Below are positions 6,816 to 16,815 of a stretch of 44,911 bases of DNA, piece after piece. The DNA is from Candidatus Omnitrophota bacterium. Lineage in GTDB: Bacteria > Omnitrophota > Gorgyraeia > JABMRN01 > RBG-13-46-9. Both the position numbers and the translations under genes were made by a program. Under the pieces are notes generated by a model. That model saw only the letters and a list, made by a program, of their open reading frames with translations, was not told where the DNA came from and ran no database searches. Positions within the stretch are counted from its first letter, which is position 1, and each line of letters opens with the position of its first letter. The stretch covers positions 599,205 through 644,115 of the forward strand of contig CP070780.1 in NCBI GenBank assembly GCA_020346285.1. Reading direction: 5' to 3'.

Positions 6816-7325
6816 TTATATTTTTCTCGAGTCGTAAGCCCAGTGAAGTATTGCCTGGCGTTGTTTAGGCCTGCAAACGGCTTTTCCCTTTTTGCAGTTT
6901 TTCCTGACTTGAGAAATATGCCTTTGAATAGCCTTCCATCTTTTAATCTGTCGTTTGTCTTCTTCCGGCAGGCGCCTTCCCATATAATACCGACAGTACC
7001 ACTGAAACCACCCTCTTGGGTCGTCTTTGTATATCCACCCTTTTTTTCTCCAGACAGAAAGAGGCTGGCTTGCGTTTATTCCGAAATAGTTTAGCTTTGC
7101 ATCATGCCTTTCCGGGCAAAGCTTGGCTTTCTTATACCATGATTTTGGGAATTCTTTTCCGCAGTCGGTCATGTATTTGCCGCCGAATATACCCATTTCT
7201 AGCATATCTTTGGGTGTTAGTTCCGGCCCAAATTCAGCGTCTAAATTCCTGCCAATGGGTTCTGTGAGAACGTATCTGAAATCCCTCTGCATTTTGTCAT
7301 TAACTAATACTGTTTTTTTCTTCAT
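6816..7325 (-). CDS. Conserved unknown protein, Trp/Tyr/Arg-rich
   Basis: A 169-residue soluble protein. I recall this sequence type as a widely distributed uncharacterised family but cannot name a function. Distinctive segments are ELTPKDMLEMGIFGGKYM, FPKSWYKKAKL, NYFGINASQPLSVWRKKGW, DDPRGWFQWYCRYYMGRR and the C-terminal CRPKQRQAILHWAYDSRKI. The many aromatics and arginines in fixed motifs suggest nucleic-acid or nucleotide binding, but that is a guess. It ends just before the first operator/leader module and lies 30 nt downstream of uvsE, so it may be co-transcribed with that repair gene. Confidence 0.75.
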   Translation of the reverse strand: MKKKTVLVNDKMQRDFRYVLTEPIGRNLDAEFGPELTPKDMLEMGIFGGKYMTDCGKEFPKSWYKKAKLCPERHDAKLNYFGINASQPLSVWRKKGWIYKDDPRGWFQWYCRYYMGRRLPEEDKRQIKRWKAIQRHISQVRKNCKKGKAVCRPKQRQAILHWAYDSRKI

Positions 7326-9573: not shown

Positions 9574-10506
9574 TTACTCCTTATCTTTAAAATACGGATC
9601 TTCGAATTGCTTTTTCAGTTCCCTTCCGCCATCATTGTGAATTGAAAATTTCCAATTTGCTTCTTTATTTACGTTGAAAAGAATAAATCCTTTTATATTC
9701 GGTAATTTTTTAATATCCCCCATTGCTTCCCTGATCCAGCCTGATTTATCGCCGCCTTTATCCGCGCATCCGAATTCGGTAATAATGACGGGCTTATCAA
9801 GGGAGCGCGTTATCTCATTATAGGATTTTTCGAATATCTCTTTGAAGCTCATCCACCTGCTCCACGGCTTTGTGTTTCCCCAATTATAACCATCAAGGCC
9901 TATATAATCAACGTAGTCGTCTCCGGGATAATAATTCATAAAGTAATTACTTCTTGCGGAAGGCACGCTTTCCCAATTTATAGAAAAAATCCATTTAACG
10001 TTATTTAAGCCTTTTTTATCAAAAAAATCTTTGACATACCTGTATATATCGATGTATTTACGGGGGGCTATTTTGCTGCCGGACCACGGGTACCAATCGC
10101 CGTTCATTTCATGCGCAAACCGCAAATAAACGGGTTTATTGAAACCGCTTATTTTTTTCGCAAACTCATCCAGGTATTCGTCGTAACCGCCCTTTAGCAG
10201 GCTGTCATATTTAATCCCGGTCTCGCTGTTCGCGTACCAGGGTTCCAGTGTAATCACGGGAACGCACCCCGAAGAAAATATGTCATTTAATACCGCTTTT
10301 TCGGGAAAGCTCTCCCAATCAAAAAATATAAGTACGAAATACGGCTTCTTGCCGTATGCCTTCCGAAATTCAGCTATTTTTTCCTTCGTAGGCCTATCCG
10401 CGATAAAAGCCCCGGTAAAACACTTCCCGTGTTTTGCGTATACGGCTGTATGCATAATAATTAAAGCCATTGCCGTTAAAATTATTGCAATGATAACGCG
10501 TTTCAT
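9574..10506 (-). CDS. Secreted glycoside hydrolase family 26-like endo-glycosidase
   Basis: A 310-residue protein with a signal peptide (about 1-24, MKRVIIAIILTAMALIIMHT then AVYA). The GH26 architecture is visible: the acid/base motif RFAHEMNGDWYPW gives E133, and ITEFGC gives the nucleophile E244, on a TIM barrel. The family includes beta-mannanases and beta-1,3-1,4-glucanases. The start overlaps the upstream GT2 synthase stop by 4 nt (ATGA), so it is part of the polysaccharide operon. Synthase-dependent exopolysaccharide loci normally include such a hydrolase to trim or release polymer, as BcsZ does for cellulose. Substrate cannot be read from sequence; a mannose- or glucose-containing polymer is likely. 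Confidence 0.88.
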   Translation of the reverse strand: MKRVIIAIILTAMALIIMHTAVYAKHGKCFTGAFIADRPTKEKIAEFRKAYGKKPYFVLIFFDWESFPEKAVLNDIFSSGCVPVITLEPWYANSETGIKYDSLLKGGYDEYLDEFAKKISGFNKPVYLRFAHEMNGDWYPWSGSKIAPRKYIDIYRYVKDFFDKKGLNNVKWIFSINWESVPSARSNYFMNYYPGDDYVDYIGLDGYNWGNTKPWSRWMSFKEIFEKSYNEITRSLDKPVIITEFGCADKGGDKSGWIREAMGDIKKLPNIKGFILFNVNKEANWKFSIHNDGGRELKKQFEDPYFKDKE

Positions 10507-12014
10507 TTTTTTTCCTCGTTAAAATAAAATATACCGCACAGAAAAATAAAATGATAGAATGCCCAGAATCCGTTGACTAAAACGGCCGGCTCCCTTTCAT
10601 ATATAAATCTGTTCATCCCCCAGACAAAGGCTATGAAATTTAACGATAACATTATAATCTGCGGCCAAAGTTTAATATACGGCAGCATTTTGCCCTTGGT
10701 TTTTTCCGTGATTCCAAACGTTACCTTGATGCCCAGCAAGGCCGACAAGGCTCCCCTTATATAAACAGAAAATGCGGCAACGCCAAGCAGTTGCCCGAGG
10801 AACAGGTCTTTTAATCTATAATTTCTTGTGCTTAAAACTCCGTGGAAGATGCTCATCGAAAGTACAATATAAGGCAGAAATGCTAAAAAATAAATTTCCG
10901 GCTTGGTAAAAAATGAAGGGACTTTAAATAGGAGATAAATGATAGGGCATATCATGAGAGCGAAAAAGGCAAGCCCTACCAGATAGTAAGAACTGGACAA
11001 CAAGTATTCCCACCATTGATTAAATCTTAATGAAAAGGGTTTGGTCAGAAATTTCGCGATAAGTTTCTTGAAAACAGATATTGTGCCTGTAGCCCAGCGA
11101 AATTGCTGTTTGAAATATCCCGATAAATTTTCGGGGCCCATGCCAAAAGCGTAGGCATGATTATAATATAAAGACTTCCAGCCTTTAGCGTGTAATTTAA
11201 CAGAAGTTGCAAAATCCTCCGTTACCGTCGATTCATCCAGGCCTTCAACTTCCAAAAGCGCATCCCGCCTAAAAACTATGTTTGTCCCGCAGCAAAACAT
11301 GGCGCCCTGCGTACTTTTACCTTCGCATATGTATTCATAAAATACGGCCTGCTGAAACGCCGAACCTCTCGCGACCCTGCTTTTCTCTATATTCGTATAG
11401 AATTGCGGGGTCTGGATAAACGCCAGTTTATCGTCCTGTTCCATTATCGGTATTAAAACATTTAGAAACTCCGGTAAAGGATTCTGGTCAGCGTCAAAAA
11501 TAGCCACATATTTTTGAGTCAGCGTTTTCAGGCAATCATTTACTATCCCTGCCTTGGCTCCATGCCTGGTTTTACGCCTGAATAGAATTAAATCGTATGT
11601 TTTGGCAAGTTCCTCGGCTTCCCGTAAATATTTTTCCTCGCTGCTATCGTCCAAAAAATAAACGGATTTTTCGCCATAATTTAAATCCTTCAACGTAATA
11701 AAAGTATTTTCCAGAACTTCCCTGGGCTCGTGCCTGGCGGCAACCAAAATAGCTACGGAGGGCTTTGTCTTGAGCGGCCCGGGAACAAAACTTCGTTCCT
11801 TCTTTTTTCTCACTGTCCTGAAAACATTTATTGCATAACCGAAACCATGGATAAGCACGAAAAATTCTCCGAATATAAGTATAATGGCGAAAAATTTCTC
11901 TAACGGCTCATATTCGGCAAAAAGAAAAAGGGTTGTCCTTACAATTACATAAACAAGGATTGCGATAAGCGTTGATATAATCAGGGCGTCTATCAAATAT
12001 CTTTTTGTTTTCAT
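10503..12014 (-). CDS. Membrane GT2 processive glycosyltransferase (exopolysaccharide synthase)
   Basis: A 503-residue cellulose-synthase-like enzyme in the inner membrane. Two N-terminal membrane helices (about 9-31 and 41-65) precede the cytosolic GT-A domain with DD at 122-123, DAD at 174-176, the catalytic TED at 265-267 and QxxRW at 303-307 (QQFRWA). About five further membrane segments lie between 320 and 500. These motifs mark processive beta-glycosyl transfer from NDP-sugar coupled to export. It lacks a PilZ domain, so c-di-GMP control is not apparent within this protein. It follows the beta-barrel exporter gene by 4 nt. Confidence 0.92.
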   Translation of the reverse strand: MKTKRYLIDALIISTLIAILVYVIVRTTLFLFAEYEPLEKFFAIILIFGEFFVLIHGFGYAINVFRTVRKKKERSFVPGPLKTKPSVAILVAARHEPREVLENTFITLKDLNYGEKSVYFLDDSSEEKYLREAEELAKTYDLILFRRKTRHGAKAGIVNDCLKTLTQKYVAIFDADQNPLPEFLNVLIPIMEQDDKLAFIQTPQFYTNIEKSRVARGSAFQQAVFYEYICEGKSTQGAMFCCGTNIVFRRDALLEVEGLDESTVTEDFATSVKLHAKGWKSLYYNHAYAFGMGPENLSGYFKQQFRWATGTISVFKKLIAKFLTKPFSLRFNQWWEYLLSSSYYLVGLAFFALMICPIIYLLFKVPSFFTKPEIYFLAFLPYIVLSMSIFHGVLSTRNYRLKDLFLGQLLGVAAFSVYIRGALSALLGIKVTFGITEKTKGKMLPYIKLWPQIIMLSLNFIAFVWGMNRFIYEREPAVLVNGFWAFYHFIFLCGIFYFNEEKK

Positions 12015-12018
12015 GTTT

Positions 12019-13533
12019 TCAAAAATAATATTTCAGTGACACGGCCAGGCTCTTATCATTATAAATATCGTTGCTTGTATTCGTGATCGAACCTTGCATG
12101 TTAAAATTTAATTTTTTGTTTATGTCCCAATTAAATTCGCCGCTAAATTTATGGCCCACTATCTCTTCCGAATCGATTGTTATATCGTATCTCAAATCAT
12201 AATAAAGGTTATCGGCGCCGAAAAATACCTCTTCTTTATTGAGAAAATGCCTCCAGTTCAGGCTTATTTTATTCGTAGAAAAGCCTTTCGGCGAGAAATA
12301 ATCGCTTACCTTATCCTTAAATTCCCTGTAAAAATACCCGTATTTAACGCTGAACCGCATGGGTTCCAAAGATAAATAATAGAGCAGATCAAATGCCGGT
12401 TCCATTCTCCAATTGCCATCGGAATAACAGGAAAACTGAAAATCCCCCCCCAGCTTCAGGCGTTTACCCGCATCTATATCTACCCGTTCTTTGAAAATAT
12501 CGTTATAATAATGCTCCCTTATGACGGCGCTATTATTTTCGAGGCGTTCCCTCCGGTAAGAAAAGCGTGATATGCCTGTATCGAATACCCTGATATTCAA
12601 GCTGCTCCCGAAATTATGCATTGCTTTTATATCTTTATCATAAGCATAAATGGAGTAGAAGCCGTCGAGCCAACCGTCCGGGTTCTGGTTATACATAAGC
12701 CGTATACCGGCATTGTTCTCTATGATATCGTTGAAATCGCTGAAGTTTCTGACAAGGAAATTGTAATTCGTGATGATTCGCAACTTGTCATTCACCGGAA
12801 AACCGACCTCCTCCCTGAAAGCATGCCATCTTATATCATTATGCCGGCCGGAGCTATCTGCCTCAAAAAACCCGTATCCTGTTTCCGAACAAATGTGCCT
12901 CGAGATAAGCCCTGTCTTTTGCAGGGCATCTTCTGCCCTGAAATGAGTAGGGGCTACATGGAGTATATGCTTGTACTCGGCTTCGGCTTCTTTCCACATA
13001 GACTGGTAAGAATAAATCTGGCTTAAATCGAATCTTGCCTCGAGATTGCCGGGGTCTTTTTCTATAAGTTCTTTATAATAAAAAATTGCCTCCTCTACCC
13101 TGTTGGCCCAATATGCCGTCTTGGCGTTCATCTCCAGCTTGACAAGTTTATCATATTCCATGTCCAATATTTTTCGGTATTCCTTTAGTGACTTATCATA
13201 TTTCCTTGCCCAGCCCAAAATGCGCGCTTTCTGCAACCTGATTTTTACATTTTCCTCTTCGCCGAGAACCTCATCATACAAGGCTATCGCATCAGCGTAT
13301 TTTTTCTGCCAGCTTAATATATCCGCAAGGCCGATTCTTGCGGCTATATTTTTCGGGTCCTCCTTCAAAGCTTTCCTATATTCGGCCTCCGCGCTTTCAT
13401 AATCTTCGGCCATGATATAGGCCTCTCCTAACAACTTCCTTATTTCGTCGTCTACGTTATTTTCGCCTAAAACCGAACGGTGGAAAAAAATCAGGCATGA
13501 GAGAATTATTGTAAAGATGGCGCCTTTTTTCAT
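12019..13533 (-). CDS. TPR / outer-membrane beta-barrel polysaccharide exporter (YaiO/PgaA-like)
   Basis: A 504-residue protein. A signal peptide (about 1-23) is followed by TPR repeats to about 215, for example AEAEYRKALKEDPKNIAARIGLADI and EARFDLSQIYSYQSMWKEAEA. The last 280 residues have alternating aromatic/polar strands typical of an outer-membrane barrel and end KYYF, the C-terminal Phe recognised by the BAM machinery. TPR plus barrel in one chain is the design of PgaA, BcsC and YaiO. It is placed directly before the GT2 synthase and directly after another TPR protein. It also shows the organism has an outer membrane. Confidence 0.88.
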   Translation of the reverse strand: MKKGAIFTIILSCLIFFHRSVLGENNVDDEIRKLLGEAYIMAEDYESAEAEYRKALKEDPKNIAARIGLADILSWQKKYADAIALYDEVLGEEENVKIRLQKARILGWARKYDKSLKEYRKILDMEYDKLVKLEMNAKTAYWANRVEEAIFYYKELIEKDPGNLEARFDLSQIYSYQSMWKEAEAEYKHILHVAPTHFRAEDALQKTGLISRHICSETGYGFFEADSSGRHNDIRWHAFREEVGFPVNDKLRIITNYNFLVRNFSDFNDIIENNAGIRLMYNQNPDGWLDGFYSIYAYDKDIKAMHNFGSSLNIRVFDTGISRFSYRRERLENNSAVIREHYYNDIFKERVDIDAGKRLKLGGDFQFSCYSDGNWRMEPAFDLLYYLSLEPMRFSVKYGYFYREFKDKVSDYFSPKGFSTNKISLNWRHFLNKEEVFFGADNLYYDLRYDITIDSEEIVGHKFSGEFNWDINKKLNFNMQGSITNTSNDIYNDKSLAVSLKYYF

Positions 13534-13537
13534 ATTC

Positions 13538-14131
13538 CTATTTCCCTTTATTCTTTTTTCTCTTTAACAATTTCTTATAGATTTCGATGGCCTTTTCCGC
13601 TTCTCCCGAATAATGCAATGCTTTTGCATATAGCAATTCCGCCTGAAAATTACCCGGGTCTTTATCCAATACTGTCTGCAGTGTTTTTTTTGCGTTATCG
13701 AACTGCTTATTCCATATATAAACCTGCCCCAATAGAATCTGCGCTTTAATATCCCCGGTCGAATTTATAATGTTTTTACATACCGCTGTAGATTCTTCAT
13801 ATTCTTTATTCCATGCCAGGGTCTCAGCCAAGGCAAACATTATTTTATAGTCTTCGGGCTCTATGGAAAGAAATTTATTAAAAATTTCTATTGCTTCTTC
13901 GAAATCCCCTGTCCATTGGTATGAATATGCAAGGCCTCTTAGCGCGGGTTTGTAGGAAGGATTTATGCTGAGGGATTTTTTATAAAATTCCCTTGCTTTA
14001 GCATAGCTTTTCTTCTCAAAAAATCTGTGTCCTTTATAATAATTTATATCTGTCTGCTGGGTGCCGTGATATATTAATGTCGTTGCCGCGGTTGTAAATA
14101 TTAAGATAGTTGACGCCAAAAACAATCTCAT
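13538..14131 (-). CDS. Periplasmic TPR protein of the exopolysaccharide locus
   Basis: A 197-residue protein with an N-terminal hydrophobic segment (about 1-20) acting as signal peptide or anchor, then at least four TPR units: ARGFYKK-type helices around 40-75 (KAREFYKKSLSINPSYKPAL), then EEAIEIFNKFLSIEPEDYKI, NAKKTLQTVLDKDPGNFQAE and a final KAIEIYKKLLKR. Such proteins scaffold polymerase and barrel in synthase-dependent systems (compare AlgK and PelB). It ends 4 nt before the barrel gene. A 111-nt gap with repeats separates it from the GNAT gene upstream. Confidence 0.82.
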   Translation of the reverse strand: MRLFLASTILIFTTAATTLIYHGTQQTDINYYKGHRFFEKKSYAKAREFYKKSLSINPSYKPALRGLAYSYQWTGDFEEAIEIFNKFLSIEPEDYKIMFALAETLAWNKEYEESTAVCKNIINSTGDIKAQILLGQVYIWNKQFDNAKKTLQTVLDKDPGNFQAELLYAKALHYSGEAEKAIEIYKKLLKRKKNKGK

Positions 14132-14171
14132 TTATTACCCCACTTACCCAAAGACATCATCTATTCCAACA

Positions 14172-14208
14172 GGACATTGTTCTTTTTCACGCAGAACAGA
14201 CATTGTCC
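14172..14208. repeat. Imperfect GGACATTGT repeat pair
   Basis: The element opens GGACATTGTTCT and closes AGAACAGACATTGTCC, with direct copies of GACATTGT and an inverted AGAACA/TGTTCT. It resembles the GGGGACA...TGTCCCC type of interspersed repeat also seen at 28718-28734. Confidence 0.55.
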
Positions 14209-14213
14209 ATTTC

Positions 14214-14247
14214 AATAGTAGGTCACCGTTAAGGGTGACCTACTATT
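14214..14247. repeat. 14-bp palindrome supplying the GNAT stop codon
   Basis: Arms AATAGTAGGTCACC (14214-14227) and GGTGACCTACTATT (14234-14247), loop GTTAAG. The TAG stop of the upstream GNAT gene (14243-14245) lies inside the right arm. No T-run follows on the minus strand. Confidence 0.85.
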
Positions 14248-14872
14248 TATCCATAATGTCAATCGTAGCAAACAGATTACTACCGGTTTTTTCAATACGC
14301 CACCCGGTAGATATATGCAATCGGATGCTGGCAAGGTTGTCAAAGCTGATATTGGCATCTATGCGCTTCAGGCCACGATTTGCCAGAAGCCTAAAAAGGT
14401 TATTATATAAGTTTTTTCCGACCCCTTTACCCCTAAAATCTCCTGAAACGCCGATGTTTAATATCTTGGCTATTTGAGGGGTAGATTCCCGCCAGGTACG
14501 GCCCGAAGGCCCGTCGGAAACCTCTTTTGGAAGGCTTATACATGAAGGTATTTTCTTGTTTTTTTTAGCTAATTTGTTAATGATTTTAAGAGCGCCGACA
14601 ACTATTGCCATAAACGGGTGGCGAAGCGTAAAATTTCTCCAATATAATGCTCTATCAATTACGGCTAATACGTAGCCTGTTATACGCCCTTTCATCGAAG
14701 AAACAAGCGCCACCACTTGCTTATTCAAAAGGGCATCCTGACAGATGGTGTAGTTCAGCCTTCCTGAACATACGCCATTAATGGAAGTATTCGTATCCTC
14801 CATAAGGCGGACAAGTTGCGGAATTTCGTCTTTGCGAAGTAATCTAAATACCGGCGATTCGTTTTCTTCCAT
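14243..14872 (-). CDS. GNAT-family N-acetyltransferase
   Basis: A 209-residue GNAT protein. The acetyl-CoA binding motif A is ILNIGVSGDFRGKGVGKNLYNNL (roughly R-G-K-G-V-G at 154-159), followed by ANISFDNLASIRLHISTGWRIEKTG, the usual motif-B end. Its place between a FemAB-like transferase and polysaccharide export genes suggests modification of a sugar or amino sugar, but the acceptor is unknown. Its 3' end runs into a 34-nt palindrome that provides the stop codon, so the last residues may be repeat-derived. Confidence 0.85.
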   Translation of the reverse strand: MEENESPVFRLLRKDEIPQLVRLMEDTNTSINGVCSGRLNYTICQDALLNKQVVALVSSMKGRITGYVLAVIDRALYWRNFTLRHPFMAIVVGALKIINKLAKKNKKIPSCISLPKEVSDGPSGRTWRESTPQIAKILNIGVSGDFRGKGVGKNLYNNLFRLLANRGLKRIDANISFDNLASIRLHISTGWRIEKTGSNLFATIDIMDK

Positions 14873-14879
14873 AAAGGCC

Positions 14880-15989
14880 CTATTTAGCTTTGTACCATAT
14901 ATTCATAATCGGCCTTATTTTCTTTATCTGTTGTTTTACTTTACTTGTATAAAAATTTTTTATCAATCGATAAAAATGGCCGGTTTTATTTGAAAGAGGG
15001 CGCTCCGAATAACCAAGGCACCTAAAAAGATTTTTTGTACTGTCGGTCCACATTGCCTTATATGGCTCCTCTCCTCTTAAAAAATCGAAGCGCATAAATC
15101 CCTTGTTGGCGGAATGCTCCAGGAGCCTCATAATAAATATATTCCCCGGCGAAAAACGCGCAAAGTCCGGATTAAATGTGGGCATATACCAGTGAAATGC
15201 ATTGTTGAAAATAAATCCAAAATGACACGCCACTATGTTTGAATTTAATTTGAGATATGATAAATCGACGTAAGATTTCTCTAAAAAAATCGCAGAGATT
15301 TCTCTTACAAAATTCCTCCAATTTTCATATTGAAATTGGCTATACCGGCCGCTAAAATCTCTCCATCTTTTAACATGGATTTTGAAATAATCTTTTAAAA
15401 AAATATCTATTCCTTCTCTGTCCTTAACATAACCAAATTCCAGCTTTCCCGCTTTCATGGCAGCTTTTTCTCTTCGAGCTACATATTTCTTAATAGTTTT
15501 ATTAAGGCGCTTATAGGTGTTATCCCAGTTTTTATCCAAATCCAAATAAGGGCTTTTATCAACAAGAAACGATTTCACCTGCTGCGATCTAAGCGTATAT
15601 GATGCTTCGGGGATAAAGGCAAGGTTCATTTCAATAAAATTGATCTTTTTAATATACGATAAAAAATGAGAAATAATTTCTTGTTCCCTGCCTTTAACTA
15701 TAATGAAATCTATATAATCACAAACAGGAGATCCGACGAACTTAATAACAGGATTGGGTACCAGGGGTATTCTCTCGGTCATAAGCGGCGCTATACCTAC
15801 CGTTACCCCATCATCTATTGCAACCAAGAGCAAAAGTTGTCTTTTACTCGTTTCGCCAAAATGCTTCCACCATATAGATTGATATTCAAATGTCTGGAAA
15901 ATAGACGTATTGACCGCTGATTCAAGCAATGCATCCCAGGCATCTTTTTTGATACCGGTGAATGATTCTATTCTTTCGATTTTAAGCAT
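14880..15989 (-). CDS. FemAB/BioF2-like acyltransferase
   Basis: A 369-residue protein of the FemAB-like double-GNAT fold (Acetyltransf_6 type). Evidence: FQTFEYQSIWWKHFGE near 35-50, LLLLVAIDDGVTVGIAPLM, the central basic KRLNKTIKKYVARREKAAMK, then ACHFGFIFNNAFHWYMPTFNPDFARFSPGNIFI and DFLRGEEPYKAMWTD. Members in exopolysaccharide clusters transfer acyl or aminoacyl groups to sugar polymers; the substrate here is unknown. It overlaps the deacetylase by 8 nt and precedes the GNAT gene by 7 nt. Confidence 0.82.
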   Translation of the reverse strand: MLKIERIESFTGIKKDAWDALLESAVNTSIFQTFEYQSIWWKHFGETSKRQLLLLVAIDDGVTVGIAPLMTERIPLVPNPVIKFVGSPVCDYIDFIIVKGREQEIISHFLSYIKKINFIEMNLAFIPEASYTLRSQQVKSFLVDKSPYLDLDKNWDNTYKRLNKTIKKYVARREKAAMKAGKLEFGYVKDREGIDIFLKDYFKIHVKRWRDFSGRYSQFQYENWRNFVREISAIFLEKSYVDLSYLKLNSNIVACHFGFIFNNAFHWYMPTFNPDFARFSPGNIFIMRLLEHSANKGFMRFDFLRGEEPYKAMWTDSTKNLFRCLGYSERPLSNKTGHFYRLIKNFYTSKVKQQIKKIRPIMNIWYKAK

Positions 15990-16698
15990 ATTTCTTTCTT
16001 AAGAGCGTTAGCCAATCATAACACCCGAGGAGTTTTCTTTCAAATTTACCGGGCGTGTCATCAAATGCTGTTATTTCAGTTCTTCGTAATGCAAAAAGGT
16101 CGGCGCCTAAACTATTGACGCCTTCGATACTCGAGCAAGCGGAATGAAAATCATTGTCCTCGAGCAGCCCGGGTACTTCCCTGTTATATGAACCATGCGG
16201 ATAGCAAAATAGATTTATTCGTTCGTTTATGTTTTTTTCTATTGTTTTTTTAGATTCTACGATTTCGAAGGTGAGCTTTTCTTTATCCATACCTGCAAGC
16301 CTCCCGTGAGTAAATGCATGAGAACCTATGGATATACCGTTGACATTCAGCGCTCTTATGTCATCCCACGTAAGTGTCGGCCAATTATGGCAATAGAGCT
16401 CTTTTGGTAAATTTCTTTCTATAAAGTTAATATTTACAAAAACAGTTGCGGTAAAACCGAATTTTTTCAAGACCGGGAGAGCATACTTCAAAATACCCTT
16501 GTATCCGTCATCAAATGTAATCACAACTGACTTTTCAGAAAGTTCCTTTTTATGCTTTATGCTCTCTGCCAGGTTAGATAGGCTAATTACGCGAAACCCA
16601 TTGTCTCTTAAATATTGCATGTGCATCGAAAATTTTGAAACCGGAACGACAAGCCCCATGGTATCATTCTCCCTGGCTTTATCAATCGAATGGTACAT
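15982..16698 (-). CDS. NodB-type polysaccharide deacetylase (start uncertain)
   Basis: Metal-dependent carbohydrate esterase (CE4) fold. From the ATG at 16698, TFDDGY is at 61-66, SHAFTH gives the metal His residues 127 and 131, and FCYPHGSYN is the later motif. The MYHSI that opens this start is normally internal in the family. The same frame stays open upstream to a TGA at 16816-16818 with plausible coding sequence (AFVKRAIKGLIADFVYLYRR), but it contains no ATG, GTG or TTG. Reading further back, the frame before the TGA starts at an ATG overlapping the nadA stop (16852-16854). So the true N-terminus is likely about 40 residues longer, by a rare start or readthrough. Confidence 0.85.
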   Translation of the reverse strand: MYHSIDKARENDTMGLVVPVSKFSMHMQYLRDNGFRVISLSNLAESIKHKKELSEKSVVITFDDGYKGILKYALPVLKKFGFTATVFVNINFIERNLPKELYCHNWPTLTWDDIRALNVNGISIGSHAFTHGRLAGMDKEKLTFEIVESKKTIEKNINERINLFCYPHGSYNREVPGLLEDNDFHSACSSIEGVNSLGADLFALRRTEITAFDDTPGKFERKLLGCYDWLTLLRKKYA

Positions 16699-16815
16699 AA
16701 GAATGCGGCAGGTCTTGCGGCCTAAAATATTTTGTCTTATAGCTCGCCTGTACAGATAGACAAAATCTGCGATAAGGCCTTTTATCGCCCTTTTAACAAA
16801 TGCTTTATTAATGAC

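Follow-up and report, generated by a model that had tools for sequence, protein, structure and literature searches.

A conserved synthase-dependent secretion locus with a GH26 hydrolase and paired half-ferritins in Candidatus Omnitrophota, a candidate system for beta-glucan export

In a stretch of 44,911 nucleotides from the Candidatus Omnitrophota contig CP070780.1 (positions 599,205 to 644,115; hereafter the window), a conserved unit encodes a tetratricopeptide repeat (TPR) protein, a second TPR protein ending in a 16-strand barrel, a processive glycosyltransferase (GT2), a glycoside hydrolase, which in the window is of family GH26, and two half-ferritins, F1 and F2, which come directly after the GH26 stop codon and were overlooked in an earlier sequence-only reading of the same DNA. 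The gene set, its conservation, the folds of its proteins and the alternation of the hydrolase between GH26 and GH8 are established. We propose that the unit carries out synthase-dependent secretion of a linear beta-glucan, under redox or iron control that F1 and F2 would exert through cyclic dimeric guanosine monophosphate (c-di-GMP), and for this proposal as a whole we would put the probability at roughly 0.55. Its parts differ in strength: export of a beta-glucan is very probable, a mixed-linkage product falls a little short of an even chance, and a regulatory role of F1 and F2 is plausible to about that same degree.

The unit apparently represents a widespread type of bacterial secretion machine that has so far gone undescribed. 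A literature search, confined to open-licence papers with subscription papers outside its scope, found no description of a synthase-dependent operon combining GT2 and GH26 or of the F1/F2 pair, and neither Chlorobi nor Planctomycet appears as a word in the main text, the part considered here, of a pipeline paper on synthase-dependent operons (PMC7112194). What emerges is a synthase-dependent polysaccharide system shared by several phyla that have been little studied, in which the resident hydrolase predicts the polymer in a testable manner, and the exchange of a lichenase-branch GH26 for a GH8 in a single slot amounts to a natural experiment on the co-evolution of hydrolase and polymer.

The source genome is a single contig of 1.43 Mb (91.44% complete). 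When 59 genomes including this one were searched with the GT2, seven contained it at an identity of at least 54%, the next match reaching only 26%, and in the neighbourhoods of these relatives the TPR protein and/or the barrel protein precede the GT2 and a GH26 often follows it. A scan of named genomes with a GT2 alignment gave 151 relatives; the 80 best of these, together with the window, make up the 81 loci (labelled L below), each extending at most 10 kb to either side of the GT2 and some shortened by contig ends. The closest named relatives are mostly from Candidatus Omnitrophota metagenome-assembled genomes.

Synthase, pore and hydrolase

The motifs of the GT2 are well conserved: QxxRW and TED occur in all 81 loci, D-A/V/C-DQN in 66 and F-x-V/I-T-x-K/R in 80. 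In the window protein the last of these reads FGITEK (F433-K438) and fits the gating-loop signature FxVTxK, which, according to the available part of PMC10374906, is common to the (1,3;1,4)-glucan synthase RiGT2 and BcsA. BcsA is the first match of the GT2 both among PDB sequences and by fold (query-normalised TM-score 0.77), the fold match serving as supporting evidence only, with a model of moderate quality (mean predicted local distance difference test score, pLDDT, 69.5). The nearest NCBIfam model is that of cellulose synthase, TIGR03030, at 237.4 bits against a cut-off of 699.1. A careful tree was built from 56 rows, comprising 46 of the 81 family members and 10 of 12 references, with RiGT2, CcsA, CrdS, Alg8, PelF and plant synthases left out. 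In it the family forms a clade (98/93) next to one that contains BcsA and BgsA-type proteins (99/99), with PgaC and IcaA as outgroup, and a quick tree of 94 rows agrees. The clade spans Omnitrophota, Elusimicrobiota, Planctomycetota, Chlorobi, Desulfobacterota and others. Among the references used, the GT2 thus lies outside the known synthase clades, so that the outcome which the sequence-only reading had named as refuting it did not arise. The description of the locus in that reading as a synthase-dependent polysaccharide system of unassigned type was borne out, GH26 taking the place that GH8 has in a sister clade. No PilZ domain was found by Pfam on the window GT2, and for a PilZ-like C-terminal extension suspected on some other GT2s Pfam gave no confirmation (L034). 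BcsB (PF03170) had no match in the source genome at its 91.44% completeness, the E. coli control being positive; the same genome has 8 PilZ and 7 GGDEF matches.

The AF2 model of the barrel protein contains 12 helices and exactly 16 strands (pLDDT 83.6), and its best Foldseek matches are BcsC (9b8a), PelBC (9h80), PgaA (4y25) and BcsC (6tzk). The query-normalised TM-scores come to 0.45-0.47, perhaps because of a different angle between TPR domain and barrel or because the targets differ in extent; normalised to the target, the PgaA barrel reaches 0.73. The barrel is present in 65 of the 74 loci having at least 1 kb upstream, and in the relatives a TPR homologue, or a fused TPR, is found upstream of it. 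Hydrophobic N-terminal stretches occur in the TPR protein (residues 2-21), in the GH26 (residues 1-25) and at the start of the barrel protein. The TPR protein of 197 residues is a probable periplasmic scaffold.

The window GH26 matches the GH26 module of Clostridium thermocellum Endoglucanase H at 9.9e-52 and the best mannanase at 6.5e-14. The same preference was observed with a profile of six GH26 sequences (8.1e-69 against 1.6e-14) and with six GH26 proteins from phyla other than Omnitrophota (1.2e-59 against 1.3e-15), and the motifs HE..NGDWYPW, with the HE acid/base, and TEF, with the nucleophile, align with Endoglucanase H. We take this module to be the lichenase CtLic26A. The specificities common to GH8 and GH26 in CAZy are those on beta-glucans, lichenan in particular. 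The title of a structure paper cited in PMC13390465 and PMC6556568, in the parts of these available, supports the identity of the module with CtLic26A, and GH26 lichenases form a branch of their own, apart from two mannanase branches (PMC6556568, in part). Because of the shared specificities and the lichenase branch, a mixed-linkage glucan or a beta-1,4-glucan is likelier than a mannan. The beta-mannan or glucomannan suggested by the sequence-only reading is rejected on this comparison.

Over the 81 loci, the hydrolase slot is occupied by GH26 in 41, by GH8 in 28, by both in none and by neither in 12, some of which are shortened. On the 94-row tree, in which 68 rows could be labelled, the distribution of GH26 and GH8 requires 2 changes, compared with 16-26 in 50 shuffles of the labels. 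GH26 relatives also occur on plasmids. Furthermore, more distant GH26 proteins (~490-510 residues) stand beside a long open reading frame (ORF; ~910-1280 residues) in L027, L028, L029 and L031, mostly together with an ORF of 260-285 residues, and these might be secretion loci of chaperone-usher-like type. One precedent for a GH26 in an exopolysaccharide cluster, the Wzx/Wzy cluster of Actinoplanes, is given in the available part of PMC13390465.

In the proposed mechanism, the GT2 would polymerise UDP-glucose and extrude the chain through its own membrane channel, the periplasmic TPR protein and the TPR domain of the barrel protein would take the chain to and across the outer membrane, and the periplasmic GH26 would trim or clear chains in the way that BcsZ and AlgL do in their systems. 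These steps are based on homology and fold, and it is by inference that we name the sugar and the linkage, as well as the direction of control by F1 and F2. An alternative is that the polymer is plain cellulose, made by a BcsB-less cellulose system in which the GH26 acts as a cellulase-like editor. This would agree with BcsA being the best match of the GT2 by sequence and fold, and with the one GH8 of the sister clade tested (of 28), which is nearest to the endoglucanase CelA of C. thermocellum (5.6e-26; E. coli BcsZ, 3.5e-12). However, a GT2 so far under the cellulose-synthase cut-off and outside the BcsA clade, the lack of PilZ on it and of BcsB in the genome, and the membership of the GH26 in the lichenase branch make plain cellulose unlikely.

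F1 and F2 as a candidate control module

F1 matches Pfam Rubrerythrin (2.2e-5, 25.3 bits, above the cut-off of 22.8), and F2 lies just under the cut-off for Ferritin_2 (4.3e-5, 24.1 bits against 24.7). Among 76 F1 sequences E18 is conserved in 89%, H28 in 87% and H60 in 86%, with no full ExxH, and among 75 F2 sequences E18 is conserved in 64%, E48 in 69% and H51 in 72%. Iterated profile searches of the 81 loci found each of F1 and F2 in 68 and the two close together in 63; most often the members of a pair overlap by 11 nt (37 pairs). Both genes lie on the same strand within ~4 kb downstream of the GT2 in 60 of the 70 loci having at least 2 kb beyond it. None of the F1, F2, GH26 and barrel profiles matched in twelve reference GT2 loci (Bcs, Bgs-like, Pga, Ica and others). 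Three loci (L054, L062 and L064) contain two F1/F2 pairs, of which one follows the GT2 and the other the hydrolase, and the copy after the GT2 has, by eye, lost some metal-ligand residues.

Fusions connect F2 with signalling domains. F2 is fused to PilZ in all three proteins tested by Pfam (L043, L056 and L071), and an L068 protein (12955-14574) joins F2 to a membrane segment and to GGDEF. In addition, L099 has a second F2 copy in fusion with a CofD domain and a weak receiver match, the F1/F2 pair of L137 comes after a gene for a GGDEF-V4R protein, and pairs are also seen beside single receiver domains. The fusions to PilZ and GGDEF suggest that iron or redox state may feed into c-di-GMP control. 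On the basis of operon position and of these fusions, F1 and F2 may form a cytosolic ferritin-like di-metal module that would tune synthesis to iron, oxygen or peroxide via c-di-GMP.

The redox or iron part of this reading comes from the neighbourhoods of F1/F2 pairs outside the operon. With F1 alone as query, 13 of the 59 genomes including the source genome gave a match, namely all 7 that carry the GT2 and 6 without it; the match is at the GT2 locus in 6 of the 7, and in G009 the matches are on other contigs. In L045 the F1/F2 profile locates a pair next to the GT2. Of eight F1 regions fetched, five show, by eye, the pair directly after a thioredoxin-reductase-like ORF, and the neighbourhoods of such pairs mostly contain rubrerythrin-, rubredoxin- or peroxiredoxin-like ORFs (also by eye). 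In L131, L132, L133, L135 and L136 a paralogous pair stands between thioredoxin-reductase-like and endonuclease III-like ORFs, in surroundings mostly of oxidative-stress type (both by eye). The same paralogous pairs, by eye mostly near rubrerythrin- or peroxiredoxin-like ORFs in several relatives, could also mean that F1 and F2 are not sensors at all and serve in iron storage, in peroxide scavenging or as structural helical subunits of the synthase. We consider this improbable, since the fusions of F2 to PilZ and GGDEF, like the pairs found next to single receiver domains, suggest signalling instead.

Several points weigh against our proposal of a c-di-GMP-controlled beta-glucan system. F1 is absent downstream of the GT2 in 10 of the 70 loci and is thus not essential everywhere (F1 and F2 are not both downstream in L091, L093, L094, L100, L103, L105, L112, L113, L115 and L117, of which L093 and L100 carry a pair at another position in the locus). 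The window F2 carries no PilZ domain, and several F1/F2 copies directly after the GT2 have, by eye, lost part of the E/ExxH set, so that metal binding by F1 and F2 may not be universal. Since pairs also exist away from the GT2, the module does not serve polymer synthesis alone. As for the polymer, the similarity of the one GH8 tested to CelA would leave room for plain cellulose, and the hydrolase switch could reflect a switch of polymer.

If F1 and F2 do sense redox state or iron, they would provide a ferritin-based input to the c-di-GMP control of a biofilm polymer, for which the open-licence literature gave hemerythrin precedents only. A bolder version, which we put forward tentatively, is that F1 and F2 constitute a new two-piece ferritin-like sensor whose half-bundles share a di-iron site, and that this sensor would pass an oxygen, peroxide or iron signal on to c-di-GMP effectors (PilZ, GGDEF) and turn on the secretion of a protective beta-glucan in anaerobic phyla via an undescribed BcsB-less synthase class that swaps GH26 and GH8.

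Upstream trio and gene layout

The sequence-only reading had presented seven genes, from a deacetylase to the GH26, as one complete-looking locus. Their coordinates, order and minus-strand orientation were verified, each with a Pfam match above the curated cut-off (Table 1), but the unit extends below position 9574 to F1 and F2, and the first three of the seven genes are regarded here as neighbours. No deacetylase, FemAB or GNAT gene was present in the neighbourhoods of the GT2 relatives from the 59-genome search, and no relative of any of the three was found in the 80 related loci at E 1e-4. The neighbourhood comparison therefore upheld the TPR, barrel, GT2 and hydrolase genes as recurrent and did not uphold the deacetylase and the two acyltransferases as parts. 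FemAB was found in 11 of the 59 genomes, including the source genome, and the other 6 genomes bearing the GT2 gave one weak match of 52 residues only.

Between the GNAT and TPR genes is a 26-base palindrome, GTAGGTCACC(N6)GGTGACCTAC (window 14219-14242), which occurs at 7 sites of the genome, clustered at 580-613 kb and at 915-919 kb. It is because of this repeated palindrome and the absence of the trio from the 80 related loci that we regard the trio as a neighbour. The palindrome folds as a strong hairpin (-25.9 kcal/mol, z -7.3). It was considered as an intrinsic terminator, but a terminator scan omits the hairpin, and with its 7 genomic copies it is termed a repeat; nor is a mobile element claimed, the 136 surrounding bases having only short partial matches outside the palindrome. 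A scan of the window against Rfam gave no matches. The deacetylase and the GNAT have no hydrophobic stretch and FemAB has a single, internal one, so that the trio, lacking a signal-like start, would not be on the side of the membrane to which the chain is extruded. Although the seven genes are contiguous and co-directional, a single locus for an acylated, partly deacetylated beta-mannan or glucomannan is very improbable in view of the absence of the trio from all 80 related loci, the sporadic occurrence of FemAB, the side of the membrane on which the trio would sit and a GH26 that is not mannanase-like.

Two further observations concern the flanks. The deacetylase frame is open for 39 codons 5' of its ATG (window 16699-16815), with residues that resemble the usual N-terminus of the family; this extension has no ATG, GTG or TTG start, and a rare start codon is possible. 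An ORF of 169 residues (window 6816-7325) without a Pfam match has a homologue in L044 (13472-13999), just downstream of the GT2/GH26 locus.

Table 1. Genes of the conserved unit and of the upstream trio, in window coordinates
Feature	Position	Strand	Basis
Deacetylase	15982-16698	-	Polysacc_deac_1 (Pfam, above curated cut-off)
FemAB-like protein	14880-15989	-	Acetyltransf_6 (Pfam, above curated cut-off)
GNAT	14243-14872	-	Acetyltransf_1 (Pfam, above curated cut-off)
TPR protein, 197 aa, N-terminal hydrophobic anchor/signal	13538-14131	-	Pfam TPR
TPR protein with C-terminal 16-strand barrel, 504 aa, predicted export pore	12019-13533	-	Pfam TPRs, predicted structure
GT2 processive synthase, BcsA-like, 503 aa, without PilZ domain	10503-12014	-	GT2/Cellulose_synt (Pfam), NCBIfam
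GH26 hydrolase, lichenase (CtLic26A) branch, 310 aa, N-terminal signal	9574-10506	-	Glyco_hydro_26 (Pfam)
F1, rubrerythrin-like half-ferritin, 75 aa	9345-9572	-	Pfam Rubrerythrin
F2, ferritin-like half-ferritin, E...ExxH, 64 aa	9149-9343	-	Pfam Ferritin_2, just under cut-off

Comparison with known systems

The system resembles Bcs in its BcsA-like GT2 with the gating-loop motif, in its BcsC-like barrel protein, which provides an outer-membrane pore of TPRs and 16 strands, and in its periplasmic glycoside hydrolase, which in the sister clade is a GH8. It differs from Bcs in that the source genome has no BcsB, the window GT2 has no PilZ domain, GH26 replaces the GH8 BcsZ in the window (GH8 being present in 28 of the 81 loci), the GT2 forms a separate clade, and an F1/F2 pair is present. 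With BgsBA of Sinorhizobium meliloti it shares a BcsA-like GT2 without a recognisable PilZ and a candidate mixed-linkage product (PMC5567048, available part). In contrast, Bgs has an HlyD-type partner, no barrel or hydrolase is annotated in the Bgs stretch examined, and in the tree BgsA falls together with BcsA and the HlyD-linked GT2s, outside the 46-row clade. RiGT2 of Romboutsia ilealis, as described in the same available part of PMC10374906, likewise has no BcsB, shows glucan synthase motifs and offers a (1,3;1,4)-beta-glucan as candidate product, but its host is Gram-positive and it carries a C-terminal PilZ; it was not included in the tree. The likeness to the Pga system for poly-N-acetylglucosamine (PNAG) is confined to the TPR-barrel protein, which is of PgaA type by fold (4y25), whereas the GT2 reaches only 97 bits against the NCBIfam cut-off of 422 for PgaC and is far from PgaC and IcaA in the tree, and the nearby deacetylase, which is outside the conserved unit, reaches 79 bits against 322 for PgaB.

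For F1 and F2, the closest comparison is with the hemerythrin-linked diguanylate cyclases Bhr-DGC of Vibrio cholerae and PG_0686 of P. gingivalis, in which a redox-responsive, non-haem iron domain is tied to c-di-GMP; the V. cholerae protein is a precedent for non-haem iron control of this messenger (PMC10101095, available part). These cyclases have the hemerythrin fold in one chain, whereas F1 and F2 are separate ferritin-like half-bundles encoded together with a polysaccharide synthase.

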